64,000 bases of DNA, from positions 331,462 to 395,461 of the forward strand of contig JAAEZT010000001.1 in NCBI GenBank assembly GCA_018222765.1, written 5' to 3'. A model generated the notes under the pieces. It made no database searches and had not been told where the DNA came from. It saw nothing but the letters and a program-made list of their open reading frames with translations. Positions 61,529 to 64,000 of the stretch are shown in pieces (the first letter of the stretch is position 1; the number at the start of each line of letters is the position of its first letter). Source of the DNA: a bacterium (GTDB lineage: Bacteria > Verrucomicrobiota > Verrucomicrobiia > Verrucomicrobiales > Akkermansiaceae). A program made the translations under genes and the position numbers.

Positions 61529-63439
61529 TTACTTATCTCCCTCTTTAAAGGGATGTCGGGGAAGTCGAACTCCCAAGGAGCGCCCCGGAGTTCCTCCCAC
61601 GGGACCAGCGCGCCAGTTGAGGGGATCAACTCCAAAAGCGCTCGTGTTAATCCGTTCGAGCCCTTGGCCCCCTCCGCCTGCTCCTACGTCCCAAGGCAAT
61701 CGATTCTGATAGATCGCCTCATCGACCGTAACGTATCGGATTTTTTCCCCCTTGGATGCCAAGGGGCGATGAATACGAAGAACACCTTGTTTTGTTGAAA
61801 TGAGGGCATCAGGAATCCGAAAAACCTGAGCGTGATCAGGAACCACCACCGACCCGGAAGACTCAGGAACACAAATGAGGTAGGCATCAGGGAGAACAGT
61901 CGTGCCCTCGGGAAACAAGAATTGAGGCACCTTTTGACCCACGGTTCCTCCACTCAGACCCCATGTTCGAGTAGGAGTATCAGAAAGCCAGAGGGAAAGC
62001 GGATCCTTGGACTGATTGTGGAGCTCGATGTATTGAAATCCCTCAGTATCCGGATGATACATCACTTCGGAAATGAGCAAGGGAATGAAACTTGATCCAA
62101 AATTTTTTAGACCAAAACTCTCGGAGAATTCGGGTTGAAAATAATCAACACCCTCGGAGGTTCGAGACCGGCCGAAGGACACGTTTTCATCACTCCCCTC
62201 AAAGCGTACCCCATGGGAATAACCAGTAAGCTCTCCCTCGGGAGTCGCGGAAAAGAGATAACAACGATCACCTTTTGAGCTGAGTGCCATCTCGCTGCCT
62301 GCCGCACAAAAATCAACCTCGTCTACGACCAGGTATCCTTTTGCCGGGACAACTGTATTTTCGGGGAACTTATGTTTATATGGTCGGCTTCTTTTATAAC
62401 TGAGCCACCAACCGGTAATGCTTACCGCAGCTGAGGTTGGGTTGTAGATCTCAACGCGGTCTACCAACTGCCCGGCAGACCGGGACCGAAATTCGCTGAT
62501 AACGAGTGGTGGAATTTTAGGATCAACCTCTTCCCTACCGGGTGACCCAAGTCTCGCGGCGCTTGCTCGCCACGTGCTGAAATGCTCTGGATCCGCTCCG
62601 GGTGCGAGGGACCTTCGGGTAAGCGAAAACCCCACCTTGGGTTTTCGCTTTTTAAAATAGCCATGATTATCCGGAACCGCAGGCCAAGGGTAGTGCGTTT
62701 CGTAGCGCATCTGGGTCGCAATGCCACCGTCGGGGCCAATCAGTGCGATTCGACCTATTTGATTGTTAAATCTAGAAGCCATCTCACCGTGGAACGGAAC
62801 CTCGGGATACAGACTTTGAAACTTTTTCGCGTCAGCAGCAACAACAACAAATCCTCCCGGCGATACGACAACGCCTTCAGGAAAAGTAAACTTGTTATAA
62901 GCATCAGTCCCCTCTTCGGTGAAATCTACAATTCGCAAGCCAGAGAGATTCAAGCCAACTTCTCCGGTATTCTTAAACTCAATGAATTCTTCATACTCGG
63001 ACTCGGGAGGACCATTCGTAGGATGAAACATGATTTCAGTGACCAGCAGTTTCGAAAAATCCTGGTCGGCAATAAAAGTCGCGGTTTTCAGTTCACTCCA
63101 ATCCTCTCCTGATTTCACCCGGCACTGAACCACCATGGATCGGTTGGCCGAGAGAGGACCACCAAAGTCGTGAGATTCAAATGAGTCTGAGTATACTTGG
63201 ACACCTGAACGAACGCTCCCATCCTCCCCCCGTGGATCAGTCCCGTCAGTAGTGTAAAAAATTGCCCCGGTAGGGTTTTGGTTCCTCAACTTCACCAGAG
63301 TTGGGGCCACAAGCTCACCGGATTCAGGAAAAACCCCTGGTGGTTCGAGAGCGGGTGAATGAATCGTGAACGCGACAAAGCAGAGATTGAACAGAAAAAG
63401 GGAAGTCCAAGAGACTGCGGCTTTCCTGAAGCGAACCAT
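61529..63439 (-). CDS. Exported protein with CHB_HEX-like domain and three lamin-tail domains
   Basis: 636 residues from the ATG at 63439, chosen because TTGACA-16 nt-TAATAT ends 6 nt before it; the ATG at 63445 is too close to the -10 box. After the signal peptide (SLFLFNLCFVAFTIHS) comes a domain with GAIFYTTDGTDPRGEDG, typical of chitobiase C-terminal-like modules. Three lamin-tail domains follow, starting near VTEIMFHPTNGPPESEYEEF, VISEFRSRSAGQLVDRVEIY and ISEVMYHPDTEGFQYIELHN. Such proteins are surface or secreted in Verrucomicrobia. The CotH kinase domain often found with them is absent. Confidence 0.85.
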   Translation of the reverse strand: MVRFRKAAVSWTSLFLFNLCFVAFTIHSPALEPPGVFPESGELVAPTLVKLRNQNPTGAIFYTTDGTDPRGEDGSVRSGVQVYSDSFESHDFGGPLSANRSMVVQCRVKSGEDWSELKTATFIADQDFSKLLVTEIMFHPTNGPPESEYEEFIEFKNTGEVGLNLSGLRIVDFTEEGTDAYNKFTFPEGVVVSPGGFVVVAADAKKFQSLYPEVPFHGEMASRFNNQIGRIALIGPDGGIATQMRYETHYPWPAVPDNHGYFKKRKPKVGFSLTRRSLAPGADPEHFSTWRASAARLGSPGREEVDPKIPPLVISEFRSRSAGQLVDRVEIYNPTSAAVSITGWWLSYKRSRPYKHKFPENTVVPAKGYLVVDEVDFCAAGSEMALSSKGDRCYLFSATPEGELTGYSHGVRFEGSDENVSFGRSRTSEGVDYFQPEFSESFGLKNFGSSFIPLLISEVMYHPDTEGFQYIELHNQSKDPLSLWLSDTPTRTWGLSGGTVGQKVPQFLFPEGTTVLPDAYLICVPESSGSVVVPDHAQVFRIPDALISTKQGVLRIHRPLASKGEKIRYVTVDEAIYQNRLPWDVGAGGGGQGLERINTSAFGVDPLNWRAGPVGGTPGRSLGVRLPRHPFKEGDK

Positions 63440-63445
63440 CCTCAA

Positions 63446-63525: not shown

Positions 63526-63999
63526 TCACTTCCTCTCTCCAAGCTCCGCCTTGGCTTCCTTGATCAGCTTGGTTAACGCCATATCCAGATCTCCCTTCAC
63601 TTGGCTCACATGTCTGATCACTCCTTTGTGATCGATGATGTAGATTGTCGGCCAACCGGCGATGTCCCACTTGCTGGAGATCGGGCCACCCACTTTTTCG
63701 TCCCGGAAATTACGCCAAGTAATCGTGCCATTCTTGACATACTTCGAGAGCGTTTTCGGAGGATCGGTGTTTACCCCAACCAAGGCGAAGGGCTCGCCTT
63801 TCCACTTCTCAACGAGCGACCGCTCGAATGGCAGCATGCCACGGCATGGGCCTCACCACATTCCCCAAAAGGGCAGAAGCACGACCTTGCCCCTGTATTC
63901 ACTTAGGGTGATTTTCTTCCCTTCAGAATCGACCCCCTCAATTTCGGGGGCTTCACACCCCACCACTAAATGAGTGATCTTATACTTCAAGTCCGCGAC
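63526..63999 (-). CDS. TlpA/redoxin-like thiol oxidoreductase, probable selenoprotein (5' end beyond window)
   Basis: The frame enters from the window edge and reads APEIEGVDSEGKKITLSEYR, then GKVVLLPFWGMW, an in-frame TGA, then GPCRGMLPFERSLVEKW. The normal motif is W-C-G-P-C, so TGA replaces exactly the first catalytic Cys and would be read as selenocysteine. The rest is a normal redoxin (VGVNTDPPKTLSKYVKNG, KWDIAGWPTIYIIDHKGVIR), with a cis-Pro after the Trp. The product should reduce or isomerise disulfides or peroxides, perhaps in the periplasm. Starting at the ATG at 63837 would lose half of the fold. Confidence 0.82.
63813..63826 (-). promoter_or_regulatory. Candidate bacterial SECIS element
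   Basis: On the minus strand CGAGC, loop GGUC, GCUCG form a 5-bp hairpin whose loop begins 31 nt after the UGA. Bacterial SECIS elements place a small loop with G and U at the start 16-37 nt after the UGA, and the E. coli fdhF loop also holds GGUC. A second hairpin (CAUGC/GCAUG) lies closer but out of range. SelB would bind the loop and deliver Sec-tRNA. Confidence 0.6.
63853..63855 (-). other. In-frame TGA, proposed selenocysteine codon
   Basis: This TGA is flanked by TGG (Trp) and GGC-CCA-TGC (Gly-Pro-Cys), so it takes the place of the first Cys in the CxxC redox motif. The frame stays open for 109 codons after it, with a conserved redoxin sequence on both sides. Confidence 0.78.
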
Positions 64000-64000
64000 C

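Follow-up and report, generated by a model that had tools for sequence, protein, structure and literature searches.

A single in-frame UGA at positions 63853-63855 of the window (the whole 64,000-nucleotide stretch that we analysed) is, we infer from sequence, almost certainly the codon for a catalytic selenocysteine (Sec) in a thioredoxin-like protein. Taken together, the data make us highly confident in a predicted TlpA/ResA-like thiol-disulfide oxidoreductase, probably exported, with a W-U-G-P-C active site in which UGA would be read as Sec by way of SelB, tRNA-Sec and a GGUC hairpin. On the minus strand, the TGA is the only interruption of a redoxin frame that otherwise runs unbroken between the edge of the window and 63526, and it lies exactly at the first cysteine of W-C-G-P-C. 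Translation from the first base, 63999, gave VADLKYKITHLVVGCEAPEIEGVDSEGKKITLSEYRGKVVLLPFWGMW-[TGA]-GPCRGMLPFERSLVEKW...GERK and then a stop TGA at 63526-63528, which bears out the continuity across the active site that the earlier note had described. The features of this Sec-TlpA gene and its neighbour are as follows.

63526..64000, minus strand: 3' portion of the Sec-TlpA gene, comprising codons 171-327 and the stop TGA 63526-63528, from the frame and the Pfam AhpC-TSA/Redoxin match at residues 183-306
63853..63855, minus strand: in-frame UGA, predicted Sec219, first catalytic position of U-G-P-C (TGA in 39 Sec-type genes, TGC/TGT in 33 Cys homologues)
63844..63846, minus strand: codon for Cys222 of U-G-P-C, predicted to be the resolving residue (38 of 39 Sec-type genes have Cys here, and L038 has Ser)
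63813..63826, minus strand: core hairpin CGAGC-GGUC-GCUCG of a predicted bacterial SECIS, from folding, pair counts and codon conservation
63818..63821, minus strand: apical loop GGUC of the predicted SECIS, located 31 nt downstream of the UGA (present there in all 39 Sec genes and in none of the 33 Cys genes)
61529..63445, minus strand: lamin-tail-domain protein, the downstream neighbour; only the three nearest genomes were seen to have it next to the Sec-TlpA gene

The longer contig places the start codon, an ATG, beyond the window (L002:2971, equivalent to window position 64509); the gene ends at 63526 and specifies 327 amino acids with Sec at 219. A truncated call of 103 residues from the ATG at 63837 had been predicted for standard annotation, and that open reading frame is in the ORF list, but the gene proved longer than the note had allowed; because its ATG lies outside the window, gene calling on the complete contig would probably yield a 218-residue upstream piece as well.

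Residues 183-306 matched AhpC-TSA (PF00578; 69.2 bits against a gathering score of 26, E 4.1e-19) and Redoxin (PF08534; 51.6 against 26.6), as expected of a TlpA/ResA-like redoxin domain. The homology runs across the TGA both in Pfam and in a comparison of the family profile with solved structures, in which the best relatives were thiol-disulfide oxidoreductases, ResA and TlpA among them. No Pfam family matched the residues before 183 at E 0.05, and a low-confidence AlphaFold2 model (4-row alignment, mean pLDDT 61.2) showed the N-terminal ~165 residues as mostly helical. A hydrophobic N terminus, judged by eye, suggests that the protein is probably exported. A functional link with the lamin-tail gene was not supported: the neighbour is found at 93-94% in L024-L026 (the same DNA as L053-L055) and is absent from the available flanks of L027-L031, some of which are short. 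The lamin-tail protein (61529-63445, minus strand) has a weak chitobiase C-terminal-like match.

We then compared homologues. The family search gave a match at 0.001 in 136 of 145 genomes, among the matches listed; 44 of 386 genomes matched at 1e-30 in the order search, and 42 of 387 at 1e-15 in the phylum search. With duplicates dropped from the counts (L053-L055 of L024-L026, L117 of L036), a TGA at the active-site column together with the same hairpin was found in 39 genes, which come from 29 genomes and belong to two of the order's families (f1, one tally of which had 24 loci plus the gene's own paralogue L058, and f81), and the TGA was conserved down to 31% protein identity. Near relatives with names, 95-97% identical, were Verrucomicrobiaceae TMED86, Akkermansiaceae cluster3_bin.90 and Verrucomicrobiales NP53; their DNA is the same as that of G130, G031 and G138, three of the 29, so they do not raise the number of genomes. 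One Sec-type gene, L038 (G072:C1), has serine in place of the resolving cysteine (U-G-P-S) and an intact hairpin. TGC or TGT occupied the column in 33 homologues, namely a first 18 (L040 and L121 in f1, L059 in f5 and 15 in f2) and 15 more, with L056 (Paenibacillus, TGC) left out of the count; beyond the order, the highest-ranking match was L059 (50%), which has the Cys form. Sec and Cys homologues share one alignment column, so that the in-frame UGA faces a conserved cysteine, the pairing that the earlier note had proposed to look for. GGTC lies exactly 31 nt downstream in 39 of 39 of these TGA genes, as against 0 of the 33 Cys genes read.

Several other loci were kept outside the 39. L122 (G086:C14) and L123 (G086:C18), TlpA-like genes of a same-genus genome, have TGA at the same column within U-R-G-C and U-G-G-C, lack GGTC at +31 and are separate from the 39 on the tree; with both counted in, the hairpin rule holds for 39 of 41. 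Also outside are 11 of the 27 loci of one homologue set, which have no Cys at the column, and L048-L052, L115 (G000:C3) and L141-L144. These last three groups have lost the first active-site cysteine (for example, FWNSNISEANR and FWHTRMREAER) and are apparently non-catalytic redoxins on sequence grounds; L141-L144, in which a TGA had been flagged in the family search, have GTC, GGG, ATG and ATG at the column.

If the TGA were instead a real stop, the locus would be a pseudogene or two separate genes. TGA does serve as a stop here, at 7 of the 30 long ORFs of the window and at the end of the Sec-TlpA gene itself, and paralogues without an active-site cysteine at the column exist (L048-L052, L115, L141-L144). 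However, the same TGA is conserved in 39 genes at protein identities as low as 31%, the codons on either side of it vary mostly synonymously at conserved residues, and a decayed gene would be unlikely to retain one stop yet acquire none besides. We therefore consider a real stop very improbable and a selenocysteine codon the far better reading.

The second line of evidence is the hairpin. GGTC starts 31 nt after the TGA (63821-63818) and is flanked by CGAGC and GCTCG. Published limits for bacterial SECIS elements are a loop of 3-9 nt, an upper stem of 4-16 bp, a G in the first two loop positions, a distance of 16-37 nt from the UGA and an MFE of -7.5 or below (PMC13188914). The GGUC loop, 5-bp stem, 31-nt spacing and folding energies of -10.0 kcal/mol (38 nt) and -9.2 kcal/mol (33 nt) lie within these limits (PMC13188914), as had been anticipated from the window, although the isolated 18-nt hairpin reaches only -6.9 kcal/mol against the limit of -7.5. 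Codon choice beneath the hairpin is near-invariant across the 39 genes: Glu is GAG in 37 of 37, Arg is CGG and Ser is TCG in 39 of 39, and Leu is CTC in 36 and CTT in 3. Conserved residues outside the hairpin in the same genes are spelled freely, with six codons for Arg at +4 (seven codons earlier than the hairpin Arg), five for Ser at -16 and four for Gly at -12. Of all that points to an RNA element, we give these frozen codons the most weight, because the alignment columns share one history. Pair counts were taken from 25 of the 39 genes, 22 of them distinct. The upper 6 pairs were 97.7% paired, compared with 19-49% in slid versions; the number of paired cells in the upper stem was equalled in 23 of 500 shuffles, and in two upper-stem pairs both partners had changed (C-G to U-A, G-C to A-U), a modest signal that was as high in 15 of 500. 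For the full 13-pair hairpin, the pairing of 80.8% did not exceed that of column shuffles (mean 81.3%; 402 of 500 shuffles were as high), which limits the support to the upper 6 pairs.

Third, the machinery that bacteria require for selenoproteins is present in the source genome, a 4.33-Mb draft of 87 contigs that is 97.76% complete. Profile searches there placed selA (488 bits, cut-off 268), selB (272, cut-off 242, spanning 2-362 of 581 profile positions), selD (374, cut-off 125) and tRNA-Sec (54, cut-off 47) above their cut-offs, and ARAGORN gave the tRNA the anticodon TCA; the check for selA, selB, selC and selD that the note had called for thus came out in favour of Sec. Among 14 control genomes, 1 passed for selA, 2 for selB, 2 for selD and 5 for tRNA-Sec; the point about tRNA-Sec rests on ARAGORN, because an RNA family score that also passes in 5 of 14 controls is alone not specific. 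The selD gene itself has an in-frame TGA (...SSCGG-[TGA]-ASK...) and a hairpin with GGTC 32 nt after it. The source genome has two genes of the Sec-TlpA group, on contigs C26 and C65, and their common 12-mer GAGCGGTCGCTC occurs twice in the 4.33 Mb, both times in these Sec redoxin genes and nowhere else there (a reversed control pattern occurred 2+2 times).

Besides selD, 6 of the 16 AhpC-TSA matches of the genome contain an in-frame TGA. Four of them are further AhpC-TSA-family genes: L126 (G000:C37:55380-55733), L127 (G000:C18:1717-2082), L134 (G000:C60:18635-18982) and L138 (G000:C75:3711-3992). In each the TGA is at a probable catalytic site (two of the four are peroxiredoxin-like, with NTFW-U and LTGG-U, one has SASW-U-PPC and one WGIG-U-GPC), and these four, the two Sec-TlpA genes and selD make seven candidate selenoproteins.

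Reassignment of TGA to another amino acid such as Trp or Gly, or non-specific read-through, would likewise yield a full-length product. This is more improbable still than a real stop: TGA ends 7 of the 30 long ORFs in the window, Sec machinery is present in the genome, homologues have Cys at this position, and among the Cys forms read, no GGTC hairpin stands at +31. A change of TGC or TGT to TGA by sequencing or assembly error, for which the draft state of the genome (87 contigs) is the one argument, is in practice excluded because the same codon recurs in 29 genomes with a frozen hairpin. The judgement that chance or error would rarely produce such a codon has held up on the 39 of 39 Sec-type genes that combine TGA and hairpin, and the selenocysteine reading as a whole has gained support from the machinery, the frozen codons and the Cys/Sec column.

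Across the order sample, 26 of the 28 genomes that carry the Sec form have a selA match (1e-60); the two without one, G109 and G634, are 86% and 90% complete. Only 1 of 16 genomes whose 1e-30 matches are Cys forms had selA (G012, the genome of L040), and among all 358 other genomes, 91 did. For 26 of 28 versus 1 of 16, Fisher's test gave p 9e-9, which is only a guide because the genomes are related. On a tree of 49 rows (the 39 Sec genes, 8 of the first 18 Cys genes and L122/L123), the Sec label required 2 changes, compared with a shuffled mean of 9.3 (0 of 500 as low). The tree does not firmly place L032, L040, L059 and the f2 Cys group relative to one another and hence shows no direction of Sec/Cys change. 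L040 retains GAGC...GCTC with GCAA instead of GGTC, which fits a change from Sec to Cys with SECIS decay, although its stem could be a matter of chance.

The domain database entry cd02966 is the TlpA-like family. The UxxC TlpA/Prx-like kind of selenoprotein is already known, having been predicted in 2005 and catalogued in 2026: a Sargasso Sea survey (PMC1088965) describes Prx-like selenoproteins (22 sequences, 21 of them with UXXC) and thiol-disulfide isomerase-like ones (4 sequences, UXXC), and a review (PMC13188914, Table 1) includes both, along with a UGC-type TlpA and a redoxin family that has UxxC. Compared by description, the thiol-disulfide isomerase-like selenoprotein (cd02966, MGB1650493.1; PMC1088965, PMC13188914) is likewise a redoxin with Sec first in UxxC, and its source was a marine survey. 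The Prx-like thiol:disulfide oxidoreductase selenoprotein (PF00578, UxxC; PMC1088965, PMC13188914), compared in the same way, has the same Pfam domain as the present protein and UxxC where peroxiredoxin has TxxU; the Sec-TlpA family, in contrast, has its best solved relatives among thiol-disulfide oxidoreductases of the ResA/TlpA type. No word beginning Verrucomicrob or Planctomycet occurs in the main text of PMC13188914, and a term search of PMC12013277 gave no hit for TlpA, thiol-disulfide, thioredoxin, Planctomycet or PVC. The Sec-TlpA gene is a well-supported member of this known kind, and its subfamily is set beside the catalogued ones by description only.

None of the 10 NCBIfam matches listed for the protein reached its cut-off. 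NF041054 (ResA-like WAxxUGC motif protein, WAxxUGC_long) is ResA-like and has U in its name motif, as the Sec-TlpA protein has at its active site, but it matched only weakly (residues 179-250, 35.9 bits against a cut-off of 300) and the site here is WUGPC; at E <= 0.001 it matched 23 of 23 members of protein alignment A2, which holds 22 Sec genes and L040. The scores for ResA (NF002854; 68.9 of 170 bits) and TlpA (55.6 of 230) were also under the cut-offs. The family profile matched the redoxin domains of the solved ResA/TlpA forms 4nmu, 1st9 and 1jfu (E 8e-21, 2e-17 and 7e-15), which have Cys rather than Sec and whose chains are 143-186 residues long, compared with 327 here.

In the mechanism that we propose, SelB and tRNA-Sec, recruited by the GGUC hairpin 31 nt downstream, would decode the UGA at 63853-63855 as Sec. 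Sec219 would be the nucleophile that attacks a disulfide (or peroxide), Cys222 would serve as the resolving residue, and the resulting Se-S bond may be reset by a membrane electron carrier of the DsbD/CcdA type; DsbD_TM (PF02683) has one match in the source genome. By analogy with the family, the substrate reaction is most likely disulfide reduction of exported proteins, and peroxide reduction is a possible alternative. Recoding at UGA-SECIS in vivo was put at 30-40% in the abstract of PMC4513850, so a truncated 218-residue product would be expected beside the full-length one.

It is possible, although we lean against it, that these genes form an uncatalogued selenoprotein subfamily of one order (Verrucomicrobiales): exported, with an N-terminal helical region of its own, Sec as the rule in two families and Cys outside them, two Sec paralogues in several genomes, a near-invariant hairpin and a Sec-to-Cys change at L040. 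If so, L040 would catch SECIS decay in the act. The strict hairpin offers a natural series for the study of SECIS reading by SelB. Because a standard gene call ends at the active-site codon, such proteins are easily overlooked or mislabelled in annotation, and the source genome seems to employ selenium in several of its redoxins.
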